This document shows, one piece after another, positions 5,576 through 58,975 of a stretch of DNA of 64,000 nucleotides. Every line of letters starts with the position of its first letter. Position 1 is the stretch's first letter. The notes under the pieces were generated by a model that saw only the letters and a list, made by a program, of their open reading frames with translations, was not told the origin of the DNA and ran no database searches. The DNA is from Bacteroidales bacterium (GTDB taxonomy: Bacteria; Bacteroidota; Bacteroidia; Bacteroidales; UBA7960), in NCBI GenBank assembly GCA_003559855.1, contig PWJZ01000072.1, positions 1 through 64,000 on the forward strand, given 5' to 3'. The position numbers were made by a program, and so were the translations under genes.

Positions 5576-6391
5576 ATGATTGAAAAAATTAAAAAGACAG
5601 CGGAGTTTTTACTAAGACATGCCGAAGACAAGCCGGTTGCCGGCATTATATTGGGCAGCGGGCTTGGCGGTCTTGTAAACAGCATGTCGGTAAAGAGATC
5701 TTTCAATTACAATGAGGTGCCTGATTTTCCGGTTTCCACCGTTGAAGGTCACAGGGGCAGGCTTATATTTGGTGAGCTGGAAGGCAAAAATGTCGTGGCT
5801 ATGCAGGGGCGTCTTCATTATTATGAAGGTTATTCAATACAGCAAATAACTTTCCCGGTTCGCGTAATGAAACTGCTCGGCATAAGACACCTTTTTTTGT
5901 CTAATGCAGCCGGCGGTTTGAATAAATCTTTTACAGCGGGTGATCTGATGATAATAACAGACCACATAAACCTGTTTTCTGACAATCCGTTGCGTGGAAA
6001 AAACCTTGATGGGCTGGGGCCACGGTTTCCCGAAATGAGTGAACCATATGACAGAACACTTATTGCCAAAGCCAAAAAGATTGCCAAAGAAAATAATATA
6101 AAAGTTAAGTCAGGTATTTATGTCGGAAGCAGCGGGCCTACGCTTGAAACACCTTCAGAATATCGGCATTTCAGGATCATAGGCGCCGATGCAACGGGCA
6201 TGTCGACCGTTCCGGAAGTCATAGTAGCCCGCCACATGAACATAACCTGTTTTGGAATATCTGTAATTACCAACCTTGCCGAACCAGAAGACCCTGATTC
6301 GCCAACAACACACGACCAGGTAAAAAGCGTAGCTGAATCAGCAGAACCGAAAATGACACTGATATTTAAAAAACTCATCGCTTCACTTTAA
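5576..6391 (+). CDS. Purine-nucleoside phosphorylase
   Basis: GIILGSGLGGL, VEGHRGRLIFG, QGRLHYYEGY, LSNAAGGLN, GPTLETPSEYR motifs of trimeric PNP. Confidence 0.95.
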   Translation: MIEKIKKTAEFLLRHAEDKPVAGIILGSGLGGLVNSMSVKRSFNYNEVPDFPVSTVEGHRGRLIFGELEGKNVVAMQGRLHYYEGYSIQQITFPVRVMKLLGIRHLFLSNAAGGLNKSFTAGDLMIITDHINLFSDNPLRGKNLDGLGPRFPEMSEPYDRTLIAKAKKIAKENNIKVKSGIYVGSSGPTLETPSEYRHFRIIGADATGMSTVPEVIVARHMNITCFGISVITNLAEPEDPDSPTTHDQVKSVAESAEPKMTLIFKKLIASL

Positions 6392-6482
6392 AAGTTGCTG
6401 AAAATTTCACGTAAACTGATAAACAAGCACCGGCTAATTATTCAAACGGATAAACAACCGCTATTACCGTAAAAAAACATAA

Positions 6483-7556
6483 ATGACAAAAACCCTTATA
6501 AAACCGAATATTTATGATTGTGATACTGAGGTAACAGAGATTGCTCCGGGGCACAAATACGGAAAAACCGAAAAGCTTCTTCAGCAAAACAAGAAAGTAT
6601 GTTTTACAAAAACCTTCGGAACGGTATTAAGTTTTTATTCATGGTTAAAAAAAAACACCCTGAAGAGATATCCTGAAGAAGATTATCAATCGGGCAGGAT
6701 TTTTCGCCTGAAATTCCGTGAGCTTGCCTCCAACATTTTGATAAAAGTTATTGATGGCAGGGCAGAATTATATGGTGCTCCTGATAATCCATGGCTGAAA
6801 GAGTTTTTTCCGGAAAAAGAATGCTTTTATATACCTTTCCCTCAATTATTGGGTCTGAACGGCGCCTGGCAATGGTTTTCCAATGGAGTCATGTTCCCGC
6901 GATTACCTTACAGGCTGCATCCGTTTTACGGCACGTATTTCCCTACCCGCACCGAACACCTTGAAATGTTTGATGAATGGCTCTATAAAAACAGCAACCG
7001 GTTCAATAATGCTATTGATATCGGAACAGGCTGCGGTGTTTTGGTTTTTTATATGCTAAAACACAAAATATCCGATATTTCCGCAACCGATATTAATCCC
7101 AATGCGATTTACAGCGTAAAAAAAGACCTTGAAAAACATGGTTTTAATAAAAAGGTGCGGCTGCGGCAGGGAAATTTTTTTGCAGGATTTTGCAGGAATT
7201 TCAACCTTGTTGTATTTAATCCGCCGTGGATACCAGGAAAACCAAAATCCGTGACAGATAGAGGTATTTATTATGAGACCAGTATGTGGCAGAATTTTTT
7301 TAATGAGGCATCCGGCCGTATGCCGGTTGGAGGCAAAATATTATTGTTGTTTTCAAATTTTGCACTGTTAAAAGGCATAAGCAATGTTCATCCGGTCAGC
7401 AAACACCTCGAATCCGATAACAGGTTCAGTGTTTCTAATGTCATTACCAGGTCCAGAAAAACTAACAAACATGAAAACAACAGTTCATTATCCGTAAACA
7501 CCGAAAAAAATGAAATAATAGAATTATGGGATATTGAATTTGCAGGCAAACGTTAA
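6483..7556 (+). CDS. SAM-dependent methyltransferase (HemK/RlmF-like, NPPW motif)
   Basis: AIDIGTGCGVLVFYML SAM motif and LVVFNPPWIPG catalytic motif. Confidence 0.8.
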   Translation: MTKTLIKPNIYDCDTEVTEIAPGHKYGKTEKLLQQNKKVCFTKTFGTVLSFYSWLKKNTLKRYPEEDYQSGRIFRLKFRELASNILIKVIDGRAELYGAPDNPWLKEFFPEKECFYIPFPQLLGLNGAWQWFSNGVMFPRLPYRLHPFYGTYFPTRTEHLEMFDEWLYKNSNRFNNAIDIGTGCGVLVFYMLKHKISDISATDINPNAIYSVKKDLEKHGFNKKVRLRQGNFFAGFCRNFNLVVFNPPWIPGKPKSVTDRGIYYETSMWQNFFNEASGRMPVGGKILLLFSNFALLKGISNVHPVSKHLESDNRFSVSNVITRSRKTNKHENNSSLSVNTEKNEIIELWDIEFAGKR

Positions 7557-24713: not shown

Positions 24714-25889
24714 CTAAATCTTAGATTTTCGTTTTCCCACCCATGAGCTTCTCATAAAGATTATTGGCCAACCGAATATCGGGATGAAGAATGCCAGTAT
24801 TATAGGTTTTCTAATTACCAATTTCAGGATCGTAAAAATATTGAGGTCATGAACAGACTTGGTATTTCCTGAATGATATCGTTGGTCGTATTCAGAAAAA
24901 AGGAATGGCCAATTCATCAGCATAAAATAGTGCAGTTTCCCACGATTTTTTATTACTTCCCTGAATAGTGATACGAAGCGATAAGGGTTTTTACCGTATT
25001 TTTTGCGTGCTTCATTCAGGTCTTCCTGCATTATGCTTCGTATTTTGCCGGTTAGGTTCCTGAGGTCATTGTTTGTAATATCTTCCAATGGTTTGTCAAT
25101 CATTTCCCAGGGTCGTATTTTTCGACCGAATACGAAATATAGTTTTGCAGGCAATGATATATAAAACATCCATGGTTGAAAAAAAACGAGCAGCGTGGTT
25201 ATCCCTACGGGCATAAAGGGAATTCCCAGGTATTTTACCTGCCTGTTTAACCAGGGCCATGAGTATGCAAAAGGATTAATATATTCGGCATTTATTGTTG
25301 AAAAGGTTATTATTTCACATTTGTATTTCAAGCTCATACGCACAAATGTTGGCCGCATATCCTGCAACTGGTATCGGCGGTTAAATCCTTTACCTATTCC
25401 TTCGATACCTTCAGGATAAATAAGTACATTATGATCTGTTTGGTTCATCATGGTTTCGAAATTGATGAACGTTGCCGGTATACCGCCGAACTTTTTCCAC
25501 AGACTTGCTATCAAAAAAGGGTTCATAAAGAGGTTTTCGGTAAGGGCAGGTGCAATAAGTGCCCTGGCAGTACCCTCTGAAAATCCGTACCTTTCATAAA
25601 GATTGCAGCTGAATGTTATGGCATCCCATGGGAAAGCCATGCCCGAATGATTTGTAACCAATAAATAAGGCTTCTCACCTTTCTGCCGACCAGGGCAATC
25701 ACCCCATCCAATCATCTCGCTGCGAAACCATGTGTCATTTATAGGTTTTATCAACTCCTCAAGTATAAATTTTGTATAAGACGGTGAGAAGTTACGGTTC
25801 AGCTTTTTTAGATTTTCTTTTGCAATCTTATCTTCCGATGAGGTAAAGAATCTTCTCAGAGAGTATGTGATTTCCTTATTTTTTGTCAT
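24714..25889 (-). CDS. Lysophospholipid/glycerol acyltransferase-like protein (PlsC-like)
   Basis: LVTNHSGMAFPWDAITFS and IYPEGIEGIGKGFNRRYQLQ resemble acyltransferase blocks I and III. Confidence 0.7.
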   Translation of the reverse strand: MTKNKEITYSLRRFFTSSEDKIAKENLKKLNRNFSPSYTKFILEELIKPINDTWFRSEMIGWGDCPGRQKGEKPYLLVTNHSGMAFPWDAITFSCNLYERYGFSEGTARALIAPALTENLFMNPFLIASLWKKFGGIPATFINFETMMNQTDHNVLIYPEGIEGIGKGFNRRYQLQDMRPTFVRMSLKYKCEIITFSTINAEYINPFAYSWPWLNRQVKYLGIPFMPVGITTLLVFFQPWMFYISLPAKLYFVFGRKIRPWEMIDKPLEDITNNDLRNLTGKIRSIMQEDLNEARKKYGKNPYRFVSLFREVIKNRGKLHYFMLMNWPFLFSEYDQRYHSGNTKSVHDLNIFTILKLVIRKPIILAFFIPIFGWPIIFMRSSWVGKRKSKI

Positions 25890-26598
25890 CTAATTTTTTA
25901 AAGTATTCTTTAATATGCTGAGAAATTCTTTCTGCATGCCTGGGGTTTACTGCAAAATATTTAACCAAATATCTTTTTTCAGGCTCGTTTTCATTGTCCA
26001 AAAGTTTTACGGTTGGCTTTTTGACCGGTATTGTCCATGGCAAAAGCATTGCTCTTTTTACTATCAGCTCATATACATCTTCGTTTTTAAGGTTTTTTTG
26101 CAAAGTAATTATTGTTTCATATCCTTTCACCCCATCAGGATTAGGTTGACATGTAATAACTTCACCGGTCAGACGACTATACGGTATCTTAATTCTTTGA
26201 CCAACATCGGTTTCAATTTCCAGCGACCGGTATCCAAGATTTTTTAATATACCCGATGTTTGAAGAAAACCGATATATTGACCGGTTTTAAACGGCACTT
26301 CTGACTTTAACACTATCCCGGCTATGAAATCCTTTGCGATAAACCAGCCGATACCGATAATTATTGCAATAATCACTGCATACATCAGTATATTATAAAA
26401 ATGCCAGTGGCTGAAAATACCTCTTAAAGCCCATAAAAGGTATAAAAACCATAACAGGAATTCTGCAACAGGAAAGACCCGCTGAAATGCCGGATGAATT
26501 TTTTCTGCGGCAACAGCCGATTGTATAGCTTTATTTGCCAGCCATAGTATGGTAAAAAGAACAAATCCTGCAATTATATATAAAACTACCGATATCAT
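25876..26598 (-). CDS. Mechanosensitive ion channel (MscS-like) domain protein
   Basis: Several N-terminal TM segments then IVLKSEVPFKTGQYIGFLQTSGILKNLGYRSLEIETDVGQRIKIPYSRLTGEVI, the MscS beta-domain pattern; overlaps downstream gene by 14 bp. Confidence 0.75.
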   Translation of the reverse strand: MISVVLYIIAGFVLFTILWLANKAIQSAVAAEKIHPAFQRVFPVAEFLLWFLYLLWALRGIFSHWHFYNILMYAVIIAIIIGIGWFIAKDFIAGIVLKSEVPFKTGQYIGFLQTSGILKNLGYRSLEIETDVGQRIKIPYSRLTGEVITCQPNPDGVKGYETIITLQKNLKNEDVYELIVKRAMLLPWTIPVKKPTVKLLDNENEPEKRYLVKYFAVNPRHAERISQHIKEYFKKLDDKK

Positions 26599-26627: not shown

Positions 26628-29600
26628 TTACAATATGATTTTGTTCTTCAACTTTTTTTCCAAAAACGGTTCAAGGTATGGGTTGAGTGCAAAAACACCT
26701 TCAAACTTTTCTTCTACAATACCTGATCTAAGCATGTTTTGCAAAAGCATACGGGTTTGCGACAATGGTTGGCGAAGCACTTCCGACAGTTTTTCACAAT
26801 CCAGCCTGCGATGAAGTGTAAATTGCAATATTACGATCCACAGATCATCGCTTATTTCGTTCAGGTGAAGGGTTGATGGTTTTCCGGGCGAATCAATTAT
26901 CAATAAATTACCCTTTATCTTTTTTATGTTGCTGATCCATGCCCTGGCAGTTTGCCCCGGATTTCCCATAGTAAGCTCAAAATATTTATTAAAAAGTTTC
27001 GCAAAATCCCATTCCGAAAAATCTTCTTCATGTTTACCGTTAAATTCAAATTGAAGACCGCCGGCCTTGTGACGCAACATTATCATCTCTTTCAACTCCC
27101 TTGCCTCCAAAGGTTTGCATTCAGCATGCCCCAGAAAGTATCCGTCAAGATCATAAACATCGTTAAGTAAATTATATGCATACGTATTGCAAATTACTAT
27201 AAAGAAGATTTTTTTGCCAAAATTATCAATAAGCTCAAAAAACCTGTTCAAATACTCCTGCCCGTTGTCTGTTCTGTGCCACCAAAGCTCGAGATCATCA
27301 ATGATTATGATCTTTTCACCGGGTAGTTTATCAAGATGACCGGCAATGTTCTCATCAGTACCGAAAGTATTTTTTATGGCATTATCAAATATTTGCTTAT
27401 CAGGTTTTTCTCCTTTAGGTGCTTTGATTATATAGGTTTGATAGCCGGGCATGTATTGCCTGGTAATAATTTTTGACAAGCTTGATTTGCCTGAATCACG
27501 CTTACCTGTTATCAGCAGACCTCCGGGATAACCGTTTTCAAAACGCGAAATAGTTTTTCCGGCATCCTCAACCTGTTTTTTCATACCTACCCAAAGATCT
27601 TTGCTTATGGTCGAACTGCCAGAAAAAAGACTCAGATAGTAATACGGAATTTCCTTCAATATACCTTTTCCCGGTGCAAGCACTTCAATTATTTCATGTA
27701 CTGCCTGACTGTTTATCTTGTGTTGCTTTTCGAAAGCGGTCACTTTCTTTGCAAGCATCACTCTTTCACTTTGAATGTATAAAACATTAACCATTGCAGC
27801 TCTGAAAGTATTGCTTATTTTCGCTCTGTTTTCCCTTATTCTTCGCCTTATACCGCTTTCTTTTTTCATCTTGTGCTTTTTCTTTCCGGTATCAGTTTTG
27901 TGAGATAAGGAAACAATATTGATGTTTTCAAATGCCAACCTCATGTAATTATGCAGGTTATTGGATGTTTTGTCGATCAATTCACATATAATATTTTCTT
28001 CGTTTTGTATTCTCTCAAGCAGGCTGGCTAGCAGCGATTCGGTTTTTTGTTCAAAGATGTCAGGATAAGCTTCATTGTCTTTTTTGTCAACATTTTCCAT
28101 ATTAAACAATGTAAGACGAATTATATCACGGATTTTTTGAGAAGACCGGTTTAGTTTTTCCGACAAGTCATTCATCTCCACACGTGTATTGTTGATCAAT
28201 TCAGTACCTGTGTAAAATTCAACTTTTTGTCGTACCGCAATGGTCTTGGTATCACTTAGCCCGAATTTGCCTTTTTCAACCTGTTGCAAAAACCTTTCAG
28301 TATTCACATCGGTTTTTTCAGGCAATTCATTAATTATATCTTGCACCTCTTTATAGAAATGTTCGAATTGCCCGTGAAGGTCAATTGCTTCCTGCTCATT
28401 CATAATAAGCCTTAATGCATCGGGTTCCTTGGTCTTTTCATGGCTTTTGAGCAATTCAACCTGTTCCTTCAATGTTTTAAGGTTTTGAAGCATATTGGCT
28501 TTGATGATCATCTTCAGCTCATCAATTTTTTTATGCAGTTTTGTTTTAATACGGTTTTTAAATGATACCAGCAGAAACTCCAGGTTACTCTTATTTATGA
28601 ACAATTTCAGATTGTTAAGCCAGGTTTCGGGCATCTCTTTTATTTTATGCAGATCTGATGAGCTTATTTTAAGTGCTTTCTCGTATGATTTTAGCTTAAA
28701 TTTTGACACCGGGCTGTCTGTTATATAGCTTATTTTTTGCAGGTTAATGTAAAGATCTGAGTTCAGATCATTACTTATCTTTTCAAAAATCCGTTTTGTT
28801 TCCTGTTGAATTTTTTCCTGTTGCATAGAAAGCCGTTGTCTTTCCATACGAGTTATTTGCAGGGCTTTATCAAAATTATCAAAATCCTTTTGTATCTTTT
28901 CAAGTGTTTCAAGCACATCTGAAAAGTGGTTTTTCAGGCTTGCTACCATCCTGTATGAATGAGTCCTGAAATCGTTGTTAGCCGAATCAAGTGCTTCCAG
29001 CCGCCTGTTGTAAAGAAAAAGATTTGCAATTTTTTTCAATTCAACCTTTTGCCTGACAGGTCGTCTGAAAATTCCGGCAATTAGCTTTTTACGCAATTTA
29101 AACAGTTTTACAGCGGCTTTATCTTCCCTGGTTATTGAAAATTCGCCCCGGTCAAAGTTAGCATAAACTTTATCGGGTATTTCAGCTATATTCGCTTCCA
29201 GATCCCGGCAGCAGTCATTTATTGCTTCTGTCAGGTGTTTTTTGGCATCAGGCAAAATTTCACCGCTAAGCTTAAGCAAATTATTCTGAGTTTGATAAGC
29301 ATAGTCATTTATGATCTTATAAAGAAAATTCCTGCCCTGACTTGTCTCTTTCGATTCAATTACTCTTTCAAGCTGATCGAAAAGCTTACCCGAAAATCCA
29401 TTAAAACTGCCAAGGTATTTGTCAAAAAGTATTGATGCCTGACCAAACCCGTTTTTCAAATATTTTATGTGTATGTCATAAAATTTTCTGCTTATGTTTA
29501 AAACTTCATTTGCAATTATTCTTTTTTCAGGGTATTTAACTTGTTCTATAACCGGTTTTTCTTTAAAGCTTTTAACGACATCTTCCTTAACATCTTCCAT

Positions 29601-31781
29601 TTCTTCATCATCAAAAACATTAATCTCGTCAAATTCGCTTCCTGCTTTGATCAGCAATGTTGTACCCAGCTGACTGATTTTTCCGCTAAGCTTTTCCAGG
29701 GGGGCACTTTCAGGTGTCAGATCTTTATTTTCAAATGGCAATAAAATTAAATCTGAGTTTCCTGATTCGTTTTTCATGATCTGCTTTTCCGACAGCCTTT
29801 CAACACTGTTATTTATAATTTTTACTTCGCCGAACAGTCGTGACTCATTCATCATCTGGTCAACCAGGTCATATATTTTTTCGCTGCTGCCGCTGTCATA
29901 GTTAATTATTATAATCCTTAGCCGTGCTGATCTCCAGGTTGGGTCGGAAGTGATAAACTTGACCAAAGTAATACCATATGAAAGTTCACGTCCATACCCA
30001 TTCCACCAAAGGTCTATGACTTTTTTCTTCCCAAAACCTTTGTTTCTATCGAAACTTAATATTGCAATATTGTAATTAAGTTGTATAAAATTTCTCAAAG
30101 CCTTGACAAATCTTACAGGGTTTTTCGTATTGCGGCTCCATCCCAGCAAGGTTGTGTTCGGCTCAAACCCCGTAAAGCCATACACCCTGCATATCAGGTC
30201 CATTCCCTGGTATATATCGCTGCATTCGTGCCTGCGCGTAAATATGGTCTTCCCGTAATTATCCGTATCCAGTATTGATTGTGCCTGTTTGCTGAAGAGT
30301 ACATTTTCCGAGGGGTTTTCGATAAGCTCAAAATTTGTAAACACTCCCATCTTTCCTACCATAGCCCTTGCCATTTCAACAAGATGCGGTCTTGATCCGG
30401 CTCCTCCACTGAACAGGATTATGTTTGGGCGCCAGTTTCGTTTGTCAAGACCACCCCTTACCGAAAGCTTTGCCAGGCCAAATTTTATCATTGACGACCA
30501 GACACCGCTCCATGTATCGCCTGCTTGCAGTTTTAATTCCTTACGTTTGATTATTAAAAAGATACCGAACATTATCAGTATAGCTGCTATCATTGCGATA
30601 AAGTCGAGCTGTATCATTATAATAAAACATGCCACACCACCTATCACACTAACCAAAACCGGGATGCGAAAAGAAGGTCTGAAGTCGGAGCCTGCCCAGT
30701 TTTCAATAGCATAGGTGAAATTGAGAAATCCGTATGTAATGATAAAAAATATGGTCACTAATCGTGCGATCACATTAAGATCGCCAATCAGAATGCCGAC
30801 CAGTGCTATTGCAAAAGTCAGCAACAGGGCATTTCGCGGTTCATTTGCAGTGCCAAAGCCTTTAGCAAATACTTTAGGGGTTATTTTGTCGATAGCCGTA
30901 GCCTGTAATATTCGCGGTGCGCTAAGAATGCTTGCAAGAGCCGAAGAAAGTGTTGCACCCCAAACACCTGCCACCACCAATGGTGCATAAAATGAAATGT
31001 TGAGCAATACGCCGGGGTCATGTATAAGCACTTGCCTGTCTACCGTTTTTGAGAGAAAAACTGCCAAACCCGTATATATAAGCAACCCTATCAGTATCGC
31101 CGCCATCATACCTACAGGTATCGACCTGCCGGGATTACGCAAATCACCCGACATGGAAGCCCCGGTGCTGAATCCGGTTACTGCAGGAAAAAAAATAGCA
31201 AAAAGGGCTATCCATGTATATGAACCCGAAAAAAAACTCAATGAGAGCCTGTCAGGCTGCATACCATGCTGTCCGAAAAAAATTGACAACAACGACAATA
31301 TTATCACGATAAGAATTATGATCTGGGTTTTCAAGGCAAGGTTTGTACTGATAAAAGAAAGTATTGTAATGAACAACAATGAAAAAACACCTGTTATCCT
31401 TATCAAATCTTTTGTAATATCAAACCCCAGCGCAGTAAGAAAAACCTCTGAAAAACCTATTAAATAAAGGCTGACGGCAAAAGACAAGCCCACAAAAAAA
31501 GCCAATCCCAGCGTACCCCCAATCGGGAGCCCCAGGCTGCGCGAAATAATATAATAATTGCCACCCGTTTCAACTTTCTTATCTGTAGCTATACTGGCAA
31601 TACTTAAACCCGTGGTAACAGAAATGATATGAGCAACTAAAATGATCCCAAGGGTAGCGATCAGCCCGGCTTCACCAACTATCCAGGGAAGTCTCAAATA
31701 CATGATCACACCCAATATCGAAAGCAAAGACGGGGTAAAAACGCCTTTAAATGTGCCAAACTTGGTATCTTTTGTACTCAT
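26628..31781 (-). CDS. Giant fusion protein: SLC12-like cation-chloride cotransporter (APC superfamily) + long helical region + P-loop ATPase + winged-helix-like C-terminus
   Basis: KFGTFKGVFTPSLLSILGVIMYLRLPWIVGEAGL (SLC12 TM1); NWRPNIILFSGGAGSRPHLVEMARAM (SLC12 cytosolic domain-like); Walker A GGLLITGKRDSGKSS; Walker B KIIIIDDLELWW. Confidence 0.85.
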   Translation of the reverse strand: MSTKDTKFGTFKGVFTPSLLSILGVIMYLRLPWIVGEAGLIATLGIILVAHIISVTTGLSIASIATDKKVETGGNYYIISRSLGLPIGGTLGLAFFVGLSFAVSLYLIGFSEVFLTALGFDITKDLIRITGVFSLLFITILSFISTNLALKTQIIILIVIILSLLSIFFGQHGMQPDRLSLSFFSGSYTWIALFAIFFPAVTGFSTGASMSGDLRNPGRSIPVGMMAAILIGLLIYTGLAVFLSKTVDRQVLIHDPGVLLNISFYAPLVVAGVWGATLSSALASILSAPRILQATAIDKITPKVFAKGFGTANEPRNALLLTFAIALVGILIGDLNVIARLVTIFFIITYGFLNFTYAIENWAGSDFRPSFRIPVLVSVIGGVACFIIMIQLDFIAMIAAILIMFGIFLIIKRKELKLQAGDTWSGVWSSMIKFGLAKLSVRGGLDKRNWRPNIILFSGGAGSRPHLVEMARAMVGKMGVFTNFELIENPSENVLFSKQAQSILDTDNYGKTIFTRRHECSDIYQGMDLICRVYGFTGFEPNTTLLGWSRNTKNPVRFVKALRNFIQLNYNIAILSFDRNKGFGKKKVIDLWWNGYGRELSYGITLVKFITSDPTWRSARLRIIIINYDSGSSEKIYDLVDQMMNESRLFGEVKIINNSVERLSEKQIMKNESGNSDLILLPFENKDLTPESAPLEKLSGKISQLGTTLLIKAGSEFDEINVFDDEEMEDVKEDVVKSFKEKPVIEQVKYPEKRIIANEVLNISRKFYDIHIKYLKNGFGQASILFDKYLGSFNGFSGKLFDQLERVIESKETSQGRNFLYKIINDYAYQTQNNLLKLSGEILPDAKKHLTEAINDCCRDLEANIAEIPDKVYANFDRGEFSITREDKAAVKLFKLRKKLIAGIFRRPVRQKVELKKIANLFLYNRRLEALDSANNDFRTHSYRMVASLKNHFSDVLETLEKIQKDFDNFDKALQITRMERQRLSMQQEKIQQETKRIFEKISNDLNSDLYINLQKISYITDSPVSKFKLKSYEKALKISSSDLHKIKEMPETWLNNLKLFINKSNLEFLLVSFKNRIKTKLHKKIDELKMIIKANMLQNLKTLKEQVELLKSHEKTKEPDALRLIMNEQEAIDLHGQFEHFYKEVQDIINELPEKTDVNTERFLQQVEKGKFGLSDTKTIAVRQKVEFYTGTELINNTRVEMNDLSEKLNRSSQKIRDIIRLTLFNMENVDKKDNEAYPDIFEQKTESLLASLLERIQNEENIICELIDKTSNNLHNYMRLAFENINIVSLSHKTDTGKKKHKMKKESGIRRRIRENRAKISNTFRAAMVNVLYIQSERVMLAKKVTAFEKQHKINSQAVHEIIEVLAPGKGILKEIPYYYLSLFSGSSTISKDLWVGMKKQVEDAGKTISRFENGYPGGLLITGKRDSGKSSLSKIITRQYMPGYQTYIIKAPKGEKPDKQIFDNAIKNTFGTDENIAGHLDKLPGEKIIIIDDLELWWHRTDNGQEYLNRFFELIDNFGKKIFFIVICNTYAYNLLNDVYDLDGYFLGHAECKPLEARELKEMIMLRHKAGGLQFEFNGKHEEDFSEWDFAKLFNKYFELTMGNPGQTARAWISNIKKIKGNLLIIDSPGKPSTLHLNEISDDLWIVILQFTLHRRLDCEKLSEVLRQPLSQTRMLLQNMLRSGIVEEKFEGVFALNPYLEPFLEKKLKNKIIL

Positions 31782-50942: not shown

Positions 50943-53900
50943 TTAATCTATAATAGTTACCTTCAATGTTTCATGATAATCATCACTAACTACATTAATA
51001 AGGTAAACCCCTTTGGAGAGGCCTGTTAAATTTATGCTTACCCTTTCGTCTGCCTCAATAATATCATAATTATATAATGCAAGCCTGCTTCCCTGCAAAT
51101 TCATAACACTTATAACCACATTTTTCATGGGCTTGCTAAACAAAACATTGTATCTGTTTCTGGCAGGATTAGGGTATCCCGCTAAATATCCGGAGGGCAT
51201 GGTTTGATCATCAACCGGCAGAACACTTGTAAATATTGCGCTTAAGCTAAGGCTGTTAGAGGGCATAGTAAACGTGTATTCCTGCTCTGTACTGAAAAGT
51301 TCATTGTTTTTTTCCCATTTTTTAAAAACATATCCGATATCAGGCTCGGCTTTTACCGTTACGGGTTCTCCTTCCATATACAAACCCTGACCTGTTGCCA
51401 TACCGGAAAGCTCGGGTTTGACTTCAAGTGAAACGAAATACAACATAGCAGCATCCAAAAGTTCAATCTTGTCAATTGCAAAATTTTCACCATTCTTACC
51501 TTCATACTGAAATGCTATTCTTACATTGCCTTCATTTGCAAATTGTATAAGATTAACACTTGTTTTCAACCATTGATAATCGGTTTGCGGTGAGTCAAAG
51601 CCGGGATGCATAGTATGATTCCATACTTCATGAAAAGCACCTCCGTCAACACTCACATAAGCTCTGAGAGAGCAATTTCCCTCTATCACCGAACTTGTAT
51701 AGCTGCCGTTGAAGTGAAACCTGAGTGCCGGTCTGCTGGCCGATGAAAAATCTACCGGGGCGGTAATCAGCCATTCGTCCTGAGTCTCTTCATCAGTACC
51801 GGGCACATATATAAAATAATCACCCTCAACAGGATTTACATTACCATTATCCGTAGGATAGCCGGTGGTGAATTGCCAGGAATATGCTGATTTTTCCACT
51901 TTTTTCCAGCATTCATCCAGTTTGCCGTCTTCAAAGATTTCCTGAAAAGGGAACTCGCTAATATACGTATCACACGGCTCATCAAGCAAAACATAAGCTG
52001 CATTTGACGGATCTGATTCTATCATGCCTTCATAAACAGCTGTTGCATGGTACTCATAAAAACCAAAACCGGGAACATTATCGGTAAATGTTGTCACCTG
52101 GGCTGTAGCAGACTGAAATATCATCTCATTATCACGGTAAAGCCTGTAATATAGAGGTGTATTTTCGTATTTTTCATAAAAGACGGCATAATTATTATTT
52201 AATGACAAGCTTTCCGTTTCGGTAATTTCACTTTCCTCCAAAGCCCTGTGGTCTGTCTTTGCCTGTTTTATTGTTGCTTTCGATGACCTGCCATCCTGGT
52301 CGGTGATATATATTTTGATCAGAAAATCAAATTGCTCGGTTTTTTGAATATCCATATATGGAAACCATTCGCCGGGAATACCGGTAAAAGAATGTCCTGC
52401 TCCGTAATTGACCATTTTCATCAATGTAGAAGGATGACCGCTTTCGTGAACCGGTTTTACGGCAACATAAAATTTTTCATCAATTTCCAGGGGATTGCTG
52501 AGAATATGTTGACTTTCCTGCAAATCTTCCGCATAAAGCAAGGGCGATTCATAAAGAAGTGCTTTCCCGTCATGTCCGTATATCTTAAATCTGAATTTAT
52601 TATCGGGCCACTGATGGTTCTGATGTTCGGCAAAGATACCCGAAACTTTTTCCAGTATGAGCGGAAAAGTGAAATCAAAATCTTTGTCATCAAACAGGGT
52701 TGCTCTTTCCGGACCTTTCCATGTAAGGTGAGTATAATCGGTCACGTGAGAATACCAGCCTTCGGTATTAGGTGTACTTCCGGGTTTATGCCACTTTAAT
52801 TCAATGCTTTCGCCGTCTATATCTTTTGTTGTCAGATATCCCGGAGGCGGGTATTCGGTATAATACGGGTCAAAGCCCTGCAAAGTCATAACCCCTTTAT
52901 TCAGCGGATCGAGGTAGGGCTTCAGTTGTTTCATCACGTTATCGGGGTCATTTGACTCCCAGTGATAACTCATTTTCCCGTAAAAATCGGGTTTTTGCGG
53001 GCTGTAACAATCGGAAGTACCTCCGGTCAGGGTTCCTACGATCAACCCCTGGCTGTTAAAAAGCGGTGATCCTGATGAACCGCCCTCGGGAACGCTCCAG
53101 TTTGTTTCTGTGCTTTCCCATTCAACACGCCAGGCGGAGTTTTCCGCCATTTTGCTGTCGTTTACCTTAACAGTGGCACTGGTCAGGGTCGTGCTGTAAG
53201 TAGAGATCTTTTTTGTATCGCCGGCGGGGTGATGTATTCCCACACCTGAATTGCTCGGACTTTCGCTGACGCTCCATCCGCTGAAATAGGGATTCCAGCC
53301 GGCAGGAGGTGATTTTTTGAGCAACACCAGCCTGAAATCTGAACCGCCATCCAAAGGTCCTTTGGATACAAGATCACAACCATGAAGCATATCATATGCC
53401 GGAGTCCCGACTGTATCCTGACATCCCGGCCTTTCAAAATTAAAATAAAACTGCCAGTATATCATATCCTGAAAATCGGCACCCGTACCACAATGAGCAG
53501 CCGATAAAAGGTAAGGTGTTGTATCCTTGGCCGTATTATTGACCAAAGCACCGGTACACCACCAATAATCCCCTCCAACCTTCATCAGCATCCGTGCTAC
53601 GCTTCGTTTATGGTTTTGCCAATCATCGCCTTCAGGGCAATTTATATCTATCTGGCACCATCCCGAATTGCCTAAACCCCAGGGACGCCCGCCATCAGAA
53701 AACAAACCTCCGCCTCTCGTTATATGAATAACATCTCTTATATTAAATGGCGACTCGGGCGGTATGTCTGAAACACCCCGCTCAATATTTAATTCGTATT
53801 CTATTACTATTGCGTCTGCAGGAATAATATGAGAGGTGAAAACGTTATGAGCATTATTGTTACGAGAGTCAAAAGCTCCAACGATAAATTGTTTGTCAAC

Positions 53901-54335
53901 ACTGTAAACAAACATCCTGGCATTTTCAGGAAGCTTAAAATCATCAAATACAAGACCCAGTGCTAATGCCCCGGGCGAGCTTATCTTTAAACGCCATATC
54001 TGAAGCGAGTCGCCAACTAAATCCCAGCTTCCCGAACAGGAAGGACCAACACCGGCAGGTAAAGAAAATCCGGCATGAAGGGCTTCACCCGGCTCAGGCG
54101 GAAACGAATAATTGCTCATCCGCCGAAACATCTCATCTGTCAAACTGACATTTAAAACATCAATATCATCGCCCGAAACCCCCGTCAAAATAGTAACAGG
54201 AGTACCACCATATTGTACTTGTGATTGTAAACGATAACACGGAAAAAACAGGAAAAAAATAATTAATGTAAATGATAAGAATAAGTGTAGAACCATTTTG
54301 AACATCTTGTGAATTTTTAGATTATTATTGATCAA
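50943..54335 (-). CDS. Secreted trypsin-like (lysyl-endopeptidase-like) serine protease with choice-of-anchor J-type domain and T9SS sorting domain
   Basis: LLSAAHCGTG, GSDFRLVLL, PEGGSSGSPLFNSQGLIVGTLTGG; C-terminal AGYPNPARNRYNVLFSKPMKNVVISVMNLQG...GVYLINVVSDDYHETLKVTI. Confidence 0.85.
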   Translation of the reverse strand: MINNNLKIHKMFKMVLHLFLSFTLIIFFLFFPCYRLQSQVQYGGTPVTILTGVSGDDIDVLNVSLTDEMFRRMSNYSFPPEPGEALHAGFSLPAGVGPSCSGSWDLVGDSLQIWRLKISSPGALALGLVFDDFKLPENARMFVYSVDKQFIVGAFDSRNNNAHNVFTSHIIPADAIVIEYELNIERGVSDIPPESPFNIRDVIHITRGGGLFSDGGRPWGLGNSGWCQIDINCPEGDDWQNHKRSVARMLMKVGGDYWWCTGALVNNTAKDTTPYLLSAAHCGTGADFQDMIYWQFYFNFERPGCQDTVGTPAYDMLHGCDLVSKGPLDGGSDFRLVLLKKSPPAGWNPYFSGWSVSESPSNSGVGIHHPAGDTKKISTYSTTLTSATVKVNDSKMAENSAWRVEWESTETNWSVPEGGSSGSPLFNSQGLIVGTLTGGTSDCYSPQKPDFYGKMSYHWESNDPDNVMKQLKPYLDPLNKGVMTLQGFDPYYTEYPPPGYLTTKDIDGESIELKWHKPGSTPNTEGWYSHVTDYTHLTWKGPERATLFDDKDFDFTFPLILEKVSGIFAEHQNHQWPDNKFRFKIYGHDGKALLYESPLLYAEDLQESQHILSNPLEIDEKFYVAVKPVHESGHPSTLMKMVNYGAGHSFTGIPGEWFPYMDIQKTEQFDFLIKIYITDQDGRSSKATIKQAKTDHRALEESEITETESLSLNNNYAVFYEKYENTPLYYRLYRDNEMIFQSATAQVTTFTDNVPGFGFYEYHATAVYEGMIESDPSNAAYVLLDEPCDTYISEFPFQEIFEDGKLDECWKKVEKSAYSWQFTTGYPTDNGNVNPVEGDYFIYVPGTDEETQDEWLITAPVDFSSASRPALRFHFNGSYTSSVIEGNCSLRAYVSVDGGAFHEVWNHTMHPGFDSPQTDYQWLKTSVNLIQFANEGNVRIAFQYEGKNGENFAIDKIELLDAAMLYFVSLEVKPELSGMATGQGLYMEGEPVTVKAEPDIGYVFKKWEKNNELFSTEQEYTFTMPSNSLSLSAIFTSVLPVDDQTMPSGYLAGYPNPARNRYNVLFSKPMKNVVISVMNLQGSRLALYNYDIIEADERVSINLTGLSKGVYLINVVSDDYHETLKVTIID

Positions 54336-54762
54336 ATCCTATCTGTTTTTAAATCTTATCTCTTGCCCGAATCGATTCGGAAATCAAAATTAAAAAAATT
54401 TTTATTCAGTTACCGTCTATTTTTATAGAAATACACCATTAACTGATTATAAAATTATCCCGCATTTTGCCAAACCACCAAAGTATTATAAAAATTAACT
54501 GAAAGTCGTTTTAACCGGTTTTTTGATGATTTAAAAATACTAAAAATCGTTCTTATTTACAGGATTAAAAAATAGCCGGTAAGGAACACGCCCCATTTCA
54601 AAAGGATCACATTATCCCTGATTTTTTAAAATATTTGATTTTATTTTGTTTAGATCAATATTTTTTTTAATTTAGCATCGATTATTGTAATTTTATACCG
54701 GGCAATGATATGTTAATTAACTTTTTTTTTATAAAAATTGTCGTTAATAAAAAAGTTTTAGT

Positions 54763-54770
54763 TATATTTG
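54763..54770 (+). promoter_or_regulatory. Putative -7 box TATATTTG upstream of the 55145 gene
   Basis: TAnnTTTG match with an upstream TTG; long (about 400 nt) leader to the 55145/55169 start. Confidence 0.35.
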
Positions 54771-55144
54771 CCAACGCAAATAATGGTCGTTTATGTCAAA
54801 ATTACAAACAAATCGACATCCTGATATGGTGAATACAAAACCATGTTTTCAGCAAATCAAGGCTATGCAAGGTTTCCATAACCTTACACCTTCCGCAGAA
54901 CCAGCAATCACTGCTTCCGGTTTCACAATTTACCTACTGTTATCGCTAATGATACCAATGGCGACTATGCACAAAACTCTCCGTGAATTTGAAACCTGCA
55001 TACCTTTTTCAGATATAATAAACTTTAACTTTAATTATTTTAATTATAAAAATGATTTAAATACCAAATTTTTTACAAACATTTTATGATAAAACCAGAA
55101 TACTAAACGAGTTATTAAAATTATTTTAATCTTTATTTTTACAA

Positions 55145-58100
55145 TTGTTAAACCAAAATTCTAAAACAATGAAACAACTATTAACAATTTTTATGGTTCT
55201 TGCTGTCACTGTTACTTATGCACAGCGGCAGGAAGCAATCTTGGAACAAAAGATACTTGAATCCCCCCGGGAAGTTTCTACGGAACACAGGGATGATCCT
55301 GTCGGTTTATGGATTCATTGGGACGATGGTATATTATTTGGGGCTGTGGGATTTGCTGCGCCTGCCGAATGGGTTACTGCAGCTCGTTTTACCCCCGGAG
55401 ATATTGAAGCATTTGATGGCTGGGAACTTACCCGGATGAACGTTGGTGTCGGTACCGGAGCAGACTATACAAAAATTGCCGTTTGGCAGGGAGAAGACGC
55501 AACCAGCCTTGAGAAAAAAGTAGAGCAGGAGTTTGACTTTGTTGCAGGATATGAGTGGAATATGGTAGAACTTGACGAGCCCTACATCCTGGATGCCTCA
55601 CAGGAGCTTTTCATAGGTGTAATATGGGGCGATCCGGGCGACGGTGTATTCCCTGCTGCTAATGATGCAGTTACTGACCATCCCGGCAAAGGCGACATGA
55701 TGAGAACTCCGGCCGGTGACTGGGTGCCATTGACAGAAACTTATGGCATTGATGGAGACTGGAGCATCCAGGGATTCATCGAAGGCGATTACTACGTTAC
55801 ATTCAACCTGGAAATGACCTATGCCGAATTCAACGGTAAAGCTTTCGACCCGCTAAACCATGATGTCTATGTTTCCGGTACTTTTGCCAAATGGTATGAT
55901 GGCGAAGAAGAAAAAGACTGGGCAATGCCAGGAACTGACGATCAATACAAGCTTGAACGCATGACAGCGCTGGAACCGGAGGTAGTGTTTTTTGAAGACT
56001 TCAGCGGCGGCCAAATACCGGCAGGCTGGGGCAATATTGACAATAACGGCGACGGTAAATTCTGGCAAATTGCACCATACCCATCCTACAAACCATATTC
56101 CGGCGATTACGCAGTAAAATCCCATTCATGGGAAGGAACCGCACTTAACCCGGATAACTGGCTTATTACACCGCAAATTTACACGCCATACGACGATTAC
56201 GAACTGAGCTTCTATGTCAAGGCACAAGACCCCAATAATGTTGCTGAAAATTACTCGGTATTGATCTCAACCACAACGCCCGCCATTGATCAATTTGAAA
56301 CTATCCATACCGAAACCCTCAGCAGTGCAGAATGGCAAAATGTAATCCTGTCACTTGAAGAATATGCAGGTGAAAGAATATTCATAGCATTCAGGCATCA
56401 CGACTGCACCGATCAGCTGAATATTCTCCTTGACAATATAGAAGTTACAGGTACTCCACCACTTATGTACCAATTAGAATTTGAAAACCTCGATATCGGA
56501 CCACAAGAATACAAATACTTTATTGTCGAGGACGATCCTACATGGGATAATCCTGAGTGGACATGGGATCCGGTAAACAAAGAGCCCAATCGCGGAGTTG
56601 TAGTAACAGGTGAAATGGAAGTGAATGAAATGTGGGGAGACCTTGTTACACATAATCTTGAAATTACAGTCGTCGACGAAGCAGGTGACGCACTTGAAAA
56701 TGTTGACTTTGAACTGAACAAGCTGCCGTTACCTCCGGCATACAGGGTAAGGTTTATTATCCAGAGAGAAGTACCGCCTCCCCCGGTAATTATGGAAGGA
56801 ACCATTGTGTCTATGGACGGCCGTGAATTATACCAGGACCCAGACAAACCCCTGCCATTTCAAATGGATTTCCCTAATGTTGAACCCGGAGTATATGACT
56901 TTTCCGCAGCTAATGAAGATTTTCTGACTGAATTCGGAACAGTGGAAGTAGTTGATGAAAACATTGAGGTAGATGTTTTCCTGGCCGAAGGTGACGCTCC
57001 GCAGCACAGTCTCACATTCAGTGTCGAAGATACACAGGGAGCCGCCGTTCAAGGTGCTACCGTACTTGTAGCCGGCAGTGAATACCAAACCGGAGCCAAC
57101 GGACAGGTTAATATCGACGTTACTGAAAGAATGTACGTTTACAATGTATATAAAGAAGGGTTTTACTTTTATAAAGACGAGATAATTGTTGACGGCAACG
57201 TTACTGAAAATGTTGTTTTGGAAATAGACGAAAACCCCGGTGTTTTTGATTTTGTCCTTATAGACGGCCAATATGAGTTCTCTGCAAAAGCATTCGGATA
57301 CCAGCCGGCTTCAGATGAAATCAGGGTAACGGGCGACAAAGAATTAACGGTTACATTGCCGTTATATCGCACCGTAAAATTCGAAATTCTGGATGAACAA
57401 GAAAATGACATTCCTGATGCTGTTGTTGTATTCGCAGGCATAGAAAATGAGCCTGGCGATTATGTATTTGAAAACATTGTAGCCGGCACTTATAATTACA
57501 GCGTAACAGCCGATGGTTATATGGGTGTTCAGGATATGGTACTGGTAACCGATGATGTTGAACAGCTGGAAACTAACGTTACGGTTACTATGAAAGATGC
57601 CCACGAAATTACTTTCAATGTTGACATGACCGACGTAACCTTTACGGCTTACGGAGCAACCGTACCTTTTGATCCTGAGTTTCATACAGTATATGTATCA
57701 GGTCCTGAATGGCCGATACCCGGCAGCAACGCAACGTTTATGCTGGAGCTCGAAGCATATACCGTAACATTCAGTGTAATGGATGCGGAAGGCGATCCAA
57801 TAACCGATGCAATTATCACTTTTGACGGTGAAACATATGCCGCGGGTCATTATGTCTTTGAAGATGTAATTCCGGGTACTTACGCGTACATAGTCGAAAA
57901 AGAGGGATACATTTCTGTTGAAGACGAGGTTACCGTAACTGATGATATTATGGTGGAAGTTATACTGGGAGAGGAAAGATCCACCGTTTCCTACACCGTT
58001 ATGAATGAAAGCGGGGAAGGTAACAGAGGTAACGGTATACTGAATTTCAAAGGAACTGTACCGTTGGCAGAAGGAGAGTATGAATACAAGTATTATATTG

Positions 58101-58975
58101 TAATATATGGTGAAACATGGAATTATCCTGACCTGCCTGAAGATGAGTATCGTCCGCTAAACGTAGATGCCGATTATACTCCTTTTTCAATTTTCGATAT
58201 CTGGGGCGAATACGAAGAAATTCCCGATCCTGTCACTGAAATTTATGAGATCTTTGAAGACGGAACATTGCCGGAATACTGGCAAAACATTGACTACAGT
58301 GGTGATGGTTACAGATGGAATATTATTCATCAAGAGGCAGGTTATTCACCCAAAGAAGGCGATTATGTAGCTATGTCGGAATCATGGGACGGCGAACCCT
58401 TACAGCCCGACAACTGGCTGATAACCCGCCAGGTAGATGTTGCAGGCACCGACTTTGAACTGAGCTTCTGGGTGAAAACACAAGACCCTGACTGGCCTCA
58501 CGAACACTACTCAGTATTGATCTCAACCGGCGAATCAATAGTTCCCGGAGTTTTTGAGGAAATTCACTCGGAAACACTAACAGCCGAAAACGTCGATTGG
58601 CAACAAAGAACCCTCGACCTGGCAGGGTATCACGGCGAATTAATATATATCGCTTTCAGACACTGGGATTGCACCGACTGGTACCAGATACTGATAGATG
58701 AAATAGAAGTTACCGGAACCGTTGGCATTAGCGAAGTTGCGGAACTGACATCTAAAGTATACCCGAATCCTGTACGCAACCTGCTTAACATAAAGAGTGA
58801 TGAAAAGATCAGATACATACAGGTGTACGACTTGACAGGACGCGTTATATACGATCTAAACGTTGATAATAGCCAGGCTGTTATCAATGTTTCTAACTTT
58901 AGCCATGGAGTTTACTTTTTGCGTATTCACACACAGAAAGGTATAGAACACCATAAATTCCAGGTAACCAGATAA
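55145..58975 (+). CDS. Large modular T9SS protein: two choice-of-anchor J-type domains, carboxypeptidase-regulatory-like/PEGA modules, T9SS sorting domain
   Basis: VFFEDFSGGQIPAGWGNIDNNGDGKFW.., IYEIFEDGTLPEYWQNIDYSGDGYRW.., repeated G.Y.F..V..GTY.Y.V...GY modules, C-terminal KVYPNPVRNLLNIKSDEKIRYIQVYDLTGRVIYDLNV...GVYFLRIHTQKGIEHHKFQV; alternative start at 55169 (MKQLLTIFMVLAVTVTYAQ signal peptide). Confidence 0.85.
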   Translation: MLNQNSKTMKQLLTIFMVLAVTVTYAQRQEAILEQKILESPREVSTEHRDDPVGLWIHWDDGILFGAVGFAAPAEWVTAARFTPGDIEAFDGWELTRMNVGVGTGADYTKIAVWQGEDATSLEKKVEQEFDFVAGYEWNMVELDEPYILDASQELFIGVIWGDPGDGVFPAANDAVTDHPGKGDMMRTPAGDWVPLTETYGIDGDWSIQGFIEGDYYVTFNLEMTYAEFNGKAFDPLNHDVYVSGTFAKWYDGEEEKDWAMPGTDDQYKLERMTALEPEVVFFEDFSGGQIPAGWGNIDNNGDGKFWQIAPYPSYKPYSGDYAVKSHSWEGTALNPDNWLITPQIYTPYDDYELSFYVKAQDPNNVAENYSVLISTTTPAIDQFETIHTETLSSAEWQNVILSLEEYAGERIFIAFRHHDCTDQLNILLDNIEVTGTPPLMYQLEFENLDIGPQEYKYFIVEDDPTWDNPEWTWDPVNKEPNRGVVVTGEMEVNEMWGDLVTHNLEITVVDEAGDALENVDFELNKLPLPPAYRVRFIIQREVPPPPVIMEGTIVSMDGRELYQDPDKPLPFQMDFPNVEPGVYDFSAANEDFLTEFGTVEVVDENIEVDVFLAEGDAPQHSLTFSVEDTQGAAVQGATVLVAGSEYQTGANGQVNIDVTERMYVYNVYKEGFYFYKDEIIVDGNVTENVVLEIDENPGVFDFVLIDGQYEFSAKAFGYQPASDEIRVTGDKELTVTLPLYRTVKFEILDEQENDIPDAVVVFAGIENEPGDYVFENIVAGTYNYSVTADGYMGVQDMVLVTDDVEQLETNVTVTMKDAHEITFNVDMTDVTFTAYGATVPFDPEFHTVYVSGPEWPIPGSNATFMLELEAYTVTFSVMDAEGDPITDAIITFDGETYAAGHYVFEDVIPGTYAYIVEKEGYISVEDEVTVTDDIMVEVILGEERSTVSYTVMNESGEGNRGNGILNFKGTVPLAEGEYEYKYYIVIYGETWNYPDLPEDEYRPLNVDADYTPFSIFDIWGEYEEIPDPVTEIYEIFEDGTLPEYWQNIDYSGDGYRWNIIHQEAGYSPKEGDYVAMSESWDGEPLQPDNWLITRQVDVAGTDFELSFWVKTQDPDWPHEHYSVLISTGESIVPGVFEEIHSETLTAENVDWQQRTLDLAGYHGELIYIAFRHWDCTDWYQILIDEIEVTGTVGISEVAELTSKVYPNPVRNLLNIKSDEKIRYIQVYDLTGRVIYDLNVDNSQAVINVSNFSHGVYFLRIHTQKGIEHHKFQVTR

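Follow-up and report, generated by a model that had tools for sequence, protein, structure and literature searches.

The cation-chloride cotransporters of the SLC12 family (NKCC1, NCC and KCC, TC 2.A.30, and the archaeal MaCCC) consist of an APC-fold carrier and an SLC12 C-terminal domain; the known cotransporters are regulated by kinases (WNK-SPAK), and in animals SLC12 carriers are thought to be controlled by kinases or by cell volume. The channels of the MscS family (MscS, MscK, YnaI and YbiO), which have a beta domain and a core of three transmembrane (TM) helices, are normally thought to be gated by membrane tension alone. In KefC-KTN and in the KtrAB/TrkAH (RCK) systems, an ion transporter is controlled by a cytosolic nucleotide-binding part of the Rossmann type, whereas the P-loop, Walker B motif, lid and winged helix are found together in the ORC/Cdc6-RuvB-STAND group of AAA+ ATPases (Pfam AAA_16/AAA_22/AAA_14-like).

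When examining a 64,000-nucleotide stretch of a Bacteroidales genome (hereinafter, the window), we found elements of several of these systems combined in two adjacent genes. The larger gene encodes an SLC12 carrier with its C-terminal domain and Na+, K+ and Cl- site residues of the NKCC type but, unlike the known cotransporters, it adds approximately 1000 residues (a helical stalk and an AAA+ ATPase) and is accompanied by an MscS-family partner gene. The product of the latter has the beta domain and the 3-TM core of MscS-family channels but is only 240 aa long, is encoded together with the AAA+ protein, lacks most of the Gly/Ala packing residues of the pore helix and contains a conserved Trp in that helix. 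The ATPase part shares its P-loop, Walker B, lid and winged helix with the ORC/Cdc6-RuvB-STAND group; unlike the members of that group, it occurs as a fusion with ion-transport proteins or is encoded alongside them, has a Walker B motif of the form hhhhxDLE without an adjacent glutamate, and has no DNA-replication or NLR repeat parts. There is also an analogy with KefC-KTN and KtrAB/TrkAH, in that an ion transporter carries a cytosolic nucleotide-binding part (whose control of the transporter is putative here) and one form of the module adjoins TrkH/TrkA-like genes, but the putative regulatory part is an AAA+ domain, not a Rossmann RCK/KTN domain, and an MscS-family partner is present. All the domains are known folds; what we rate as new is the AAA+/MscS module with plug-in transporters. 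A full-text search of open-access papers turned up neither an account of an MscS/AAA+ pair nor one of an SLC12-ATPase fusion. The ATPase and MscS are also paired in the company of other ion transporters, and we therefore regard them as what looks like a modular system, so far undescribed, for the control of salt and turgor in the cell.

The fusion gene and its carrier

As the initial annotation of the window had stated, the fusion is encoded in a single unbroken open reading frame; this frame is on the minus strand. The reading of the product in that annotation as an SLC12 carrier, a helical region and a P-loop ATPase was confirmed by Pfam/NCBIfam, phmmer, AlphaFold and Foldseek. In the order of the protein, the features are as follows.

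26628..31781, minus strand: SLC12-helical-AAA+ fusion gene, 1717 aa (open reading frame, Pfam/NCBIfam, phmmer, homologue survey)
30546..31760, minus strand: SLC12/APC-fold transmembrane domain, residues about 8-412 (Pfam, NCBIfam, phmmer, ion-site alignment)
29712..30434, minus strand: SLC12-type cytosolic C-terminal domain, residues about 450-690 (phmmer to KCCs; PF03522 in homologues)
27717..29549, minus strand: long, fast-evolving helical region, residues about 745-1355 (AlphaFold, hhalign, low conservation)
26982..27644, minus strand: AAA+ ATPase core and lid, residues about 1380-1600 (Pfam AAA, AlphaFold, Foldseek)
27480..27506, minus strand: Walker A motif GKRDSGKSS, residues 1426-1434 (translation and 40-sequence alignment; K1432 in 40/40)
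27279..27314, minus strand: Walker B motif KIIIIDDLELWW, residues 1490-1501 (D1496 in 39/40, W1500-W1501 in 40/40)
27069..27074, minus strand: Arg1570-His1571 of the AAA+ part (40/40 in aligned homologues)
26631..26864, minus strand: C-terminal winged-helix domain, residues about 1640-1717 (AlphaFold; weak winged-helix matches)

Approximately 40 full-length homologues of the fusion were detected, most of them with 32-73% identity. Among 98 genomes searched, 46 of which belong to the same family, the full-length fusion is present in most of the family and in several other families of the order, and full-length homologues were found in other orders as well, which rules out a chimeric assembly join. 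An earlier scan of genome contigs with a single protein as the query produced no matches, whereas a GTDB scan with the ATPase alignment yielded 80 further loci, from Bacteroidota and from metagenome-assembled genomes assigned to Ignavibacteriota, Delongbacteria, Calditrichota, Latescibacterota and a deltaproteobacterium/Myxococcota. Altogether, 84 distinct genes, found in Bacteroidota and in several further phyla, encode the fusion. An artefact or a meaningless accidental fusion could be argued from the Pfam AAA match in the C-terminal part, which is barely above the cut-off (21.9 vs 21.2 bits), and from one locus, L072, in which the transporter and the module are on two separate open reading frames; the homologue survey refutes this explanation and leaves it virtually no probability, given the number and spread of the fused genes, their placement in one main clade of the tree and the strong conservation of the key residues.

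The N-terminal part matches Pfam AA_permease (2.4e-40) and the NCBIfam K-Cl cotransporter model TIGR00930 (5.8e-104, under the full-length cut-off of that model), and phmmer matches human NKCC1 structures over residues 6-552 at 7e-73. The phmmer alignment to KCCs reaches residue 657, indicating that the SLC12 C-terminal domain is present; PF03522 matches homologues at 5e-6 to 3e-5, slightly under the cut-off, is not called in the window protein itself and had no match in a search of the genome to which the window belongs, a silence that is no proof of absence. When positions were mapped via the phmmer alignment to NKCC1, the residues of all three ion sites were found to have equivalents: L297, A610, S613 and S614 of the Na+ site correspond to L20, A276, S279 and S280; I299, Y383, P496 and T499 of the K+ site to I22, Y106, P199 and T202; and G301, V302, G500 and Y686 of the Cl- site to G24, V25, G203 and Y350. 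These equivalents are kept in 38-40 of 40 homologues. We take the ion-coordinating roles of the NKCC1 residues to be established by cryo-EM work, and the two serines of the Na+ site represent the NKCC/NCC pattern, not that of KCC. The carrier is predicted from its sequence to be a Na-K-Cl-cotransporter-like SLC12 protein. At residue 205 (31167-31169, minus strand), which corresponds to NKCC1 L502 in the second Cl- site, these carriers have E, Q, T, N or S instead of L, so their anion stoichiometry may differ from that of NKCC1.

The helical region and the ATPase

An AlphaFold model of residues 700-1717 (62 sequences; mean pLDDT 82), for which, as for the other structure predictions, the alignment was built from the window and related loci, consists of approximately 600 residues of long helices followed by the AAA+ core, the lid and the winged helix. 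The helical region has nearly no invariant position among 40 aligned proteins and holds an internal duplication, in which an LPE-x-I beta strand is followed by a long helix, the two halves being matched by hhalign at 92-94% (E 2e-7 to 7e-7). No family in Pfam or NCBIfam spans this region or names the module. The top Foldseek matches of the model are RuvB, ORC/Cdc6 and STAND ATPases (E 3e-7 to 1e-5), and the matches also include archaeal STAND-like ATPases and Apaf-1. With Walker A and Walker B, an ASCE core, a lid and a winged helix, the C-terminal part has the composition of an AAA+ ATPase.

Both Walker motifs are located where the initial annotation had placed them, and a survey of the homologues bears out the conservation of both the fusion and the Walker residues. 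This conservation is that of the 40-sequence alignment of full-length proteins, not of the 80 scanned loci, in which Walker B and the WW pair are biased because the GTDB scan used the pattern D-[LI]-[EG]-LWW. The Walker B aspartate is the second of two (D1496), the first (D1495) not being conserved. The motif reads D-L-E/G, with no Glu right after this aspartate, and the candidate E1498 is present in just 63 of the 84 SLC12-fused genes, so we do not assume active hydrolysis. Outside the Walker motifs, Arg1570 is invariant across all four architectures in which the module occurs, and His1571 is found in most.

The MscS-family partner and the settings of the module

The gene next to the fusion, which the initial annotation had missed, is located 29 bp downstream.

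25876..26598, minus strand: MscS-family partner gene, 240 aa (PF00924, AlphaFold, Foldseek, conserved neighbour)

It matches PF00924 at 9e-8 (32.5 bits vs a cut-off of 20.2), and its AlphaFold model (pLDDT 91) has 3 TM helices, a beta domain and a small alpha/beta domain. The best Foldseek matches are to the MscS family only (E 3e-11), with a TM-score of just 0.37 because the membrane and cytosolic parts are oriented differently. By its fold, the partner is a divergent MscS relative, with putative conduction and tension gating. An MscS gene is directly downstream in 77 of the 81 distinct SLC12-ATPase genes with enough flank, a count from related genomes and hence, like the other neighbourhood counts, not one of independent cases; the remaining 4 have no downstream MscS gene in the available sequence. 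In 43 of the 77 pairs, the two reading frames overlap or abut, often by 4 bp. By contrast, the 6-kb surroundings of 13 SLC12 genes (~740 aa) without the ATPase contain neither an MscS gene nor a module gene in any of the cases. The genome of the window has 6 PF00924 matches, and given ~2,500 genes (estimated from 2.97 Mb), the chance of adjacency is below 1%. On its other side, the mscS gene overlaps by 14 bp at its end a gene for a putative PlsC-like acyltransferase (24714-25889), which adjoins the module only in the nearest relative.

The helical and AAA+ parts occur together in at least four settings. In setting A, represented by the 84 distinct genes, they are fused to SLC12 and accompanied by the mini-MscS. 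In setting B (L181-L186), they are fused to a CPA Na+/H+ exchanger in proteins of about 1500 aa (PF00999, 1e-18 to 4e-21), and the gene order is the CPA-AAA+ fusion, MscS, TrkH and a TrkA-like gene, the latter called by eye, with a membrane protein that resembles a second antiporter, without a Pfam match, encoded upstream. MscS is adjacent to 5 of 6 CPA-fused genes; for L187, no MscS neighbour was detected. In setting C, the module stands alone as a soluble protein, ~1000 aa long or, in its short forms, ~450 aa. MscS adjoins it in 33 of 34 cases, downstream in 27 and upstream in 6 (upstream examples were confirmed by Pfam), and 40 of 61 good-quality genomes from one other Bacteroidota family encode this form. 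In setting D (L189, L190, L200, L219), a soluble AAA+ protein of 750-800 aa is encoded with a small 3-TM protein, which is MscS-like or unrecognised (in L200 and L219, not recognised as MscS), and a separate CPA gene. Thus, what the initial annotation had treated as parts of one fusion protein include an independent helical-AAA+ module with an MscS partner of its own, with or without various transporters; since the fused transporter may be SLC12, CPA or none, AAA+ plus MscS form the constant core, to which interchangeable transporters are added.

The soluble and fused modules are homologous over their full length (929 columns, probability 100%, E 7e-50). The tree of the AAA+ domain requires only 6 changes among the four architecture labels vs a mean of 41 when these are shuffled; the AAA+/MscS pairing thus extends across the entire tree. 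The SLC12 fusions form one main clade, and a single origin of this fusion is most likely from the tree. Two rows labelled soluble fall within this clade, L072, with the transporter and the module on adjacent reading frames, and L144, a truncated reading frame of 318 aa.

Several individual loci deserve separate mention. In L072 (5990-11900), the transporter (691 aa), the module (1005 aa) and mscS are three successive reading frames, by gene fission or an assembly frameshift. L185 (3021-12299) exemplifies a five-gene ion operon, with a divergent MscS. L188, first classed as CPA-fused by its length, has no PF00999 match and was excluded from that class. In L045, the C-terminus of the MscS neighbour (6369-7238) has a match to OSR1_C, a domain of the kinase OSR1, which controls animal NKCC, at 2.5e-4, below the Pfam cut-off and most likely by chance.

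The branches differ in their catalytic residues. The SLC12 fusions keep the P-loop K and the Walker B D in 83 of 84 genes each; in the soluble branch, R, I or V often replaces the former, and most proteins have lost the latter; in the CPA fusions, the K is mostly kept and the D mostly lost. ATP hydrolysis is therefore not essential to the family as a whole and may not matter. In the soluble proteins L039-L045, L155-L180 and L204-L217, degenerate Walker motifs accompany a canonical MscS neighbour, and many of these proteins are pseudo-ATPases. One could conclude that the helical-AAA+ part is a mere tether that co-localises the transporter and the MscS-like protein, with nucleotide binding a vestige, as the long, fast-evolving and internally duplicated helical region and the lost Walker residues of two branches might indicate; we consider this quite improbable because, in the SLC12 branch, the Walker A Lys and Walker B Asp are near-invariant next to helical sequence that diverges freely. 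Slightly less improbable, but still unlikely, is an assembly or remodelling factor that oligomerises on the MscS ring and the transporter, instead of gating them in response to a signal. The relationship of the AAA+ fold with its winged helix to the ring or spiral formers RuvB, ORC and TnsC, the long stalk in the model and the conserved P-loop of the SLC12 branch are compatible with such a factor, whereas the permanent fusion to a carrier suggests a standing regulator over a transient one, and the catalytic residues are degenerate in two branches.

The MscS neighbours differ as well. In the soluble branch, the pore helix is canonical, with a G/A/S fraction of 0.34 (e.g., ASVGVAIGFASQDLLKNIFGG), whereas it is altered wherever a transporter is attached, with fractions of 0.15-0.17 (0.17 for the mini-MscS), although the compared rows are related, so that a P value is no fair test; in the SLC12 branch, this helix has a conserved Trp. 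The depletion suggests that, when combined with a transporter, the MscS-like subunit need not be a release valve and could instead be a sensor. Alternatively, the pore helix of the mini-MscS may be so changed that the protein neither conducts nor senses tension.

A proposed modular system for ion and turgor homeostasis

Among the explanations considered, we favour, with moderate confidence, a modular ion/turgor-homeostasis system, with the helical-AAA+ protein as the coupling element between an MscS-type membrane subunit and a transporter; the pairing with MscS in 77/81, 33/34 and 5/6 cases vs 0/13 controls speaks for it. The osmolarity- or nucleotide-dependent regulator or scaffold proposed in the initial annotation remains the best fit in this respect, given that MscS-family, SLC12, CPA and Trk genes all occur coupled to the module, although it had been seen there as a lone, odd fusion. 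Gene neighbourhood and fusion are no proof of coupling, and it is from gene context and conservation that we infer the coupling, the ATP dependence and the direction of control. A role in osmotic or ionic homeostasis appears quite likely, and a physical complex of the parts only a little less so. In the proposed scheme, the constant core would be the helical-stalk AAA+ protein encoded beside the MscS-family membrane protein, and the variable part, a secondary ion transporter, here the SLC12 carrier fused to the AAA+ protein. The MscS-type subunit would sense membrane tension and, in the soluble branch, also serve as the release channel; its cytoplasmic binding partner, the helical-AAA+ protein, would shift its state with tension, ionic strength or nucleotide, and this shift would raise or lower the activity of the attached transporter, matching salt uptake to turgor. 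The AAA+ protein would accordingly adjust the transporter in settings A, B and D and the channel in setting C. That ATP binding is the switch is perhaps an even proposition, leaning slightly against; the altered pore helix suggests, somewhat more tentatively, that in the fused forms the MscS-like subunit may act as the sensor and the transporter as the output. More speculatively, and in our view doubtfully, bacteria could control cell volume much as animals do, with an MscS-fold tension sensor acting through an AAA+ switch on the attached SLC12 or CPA carrier, and the sister-branch module acting on a true MscS channel, in which case one type of module would govern both salt uptake and emergency release.

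If the proposed coupling is true, bacteria would have a dedicated device linking ion uptake to release, and cation-chloride cotransporters could be regulated without kinases. The scheme also provides a testable partner and function for many unannotated proteins of 1000-1700 aa in Bacteroidota and their relatives.

The structural matches to STAND, Apaf-1, NLR and Avs4 folds, together with MscS as a possible membrane effector, bring to mind an anti-phage or cell-death mechanism, with a STAND-like ATPase that would respond to infection by opening a membrane channel. This is very unlikely, and the least likely of the assembly, scaffold and defence explanations: the proteins of the window have no PADLOC match, there is no repeat-type sensor domain, the genes coupled to the module serve ion transport (SLC12, CPA, TrkH/TrkA-like), and its distribution is not patchy or island-borne. 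The region is core-chromosomal and adjoins rpoBC and tuf; this location and the presence in most genomes of the family indicate a housekeeping, not a mobile, system. PADLOC did give mad8/mad3 hits for a CPA-fused homologue, which reflect a generic match to the P-loop. Elsewhere in the window, two very large secreted-looking proteins, one with InlB B-repeats and one a Cleaved Adhesin protein with a Por secretion tail, are encoded at 50943-58975, flanked by the genes for a carboxyltransferase and a TonB-dependent receptor.
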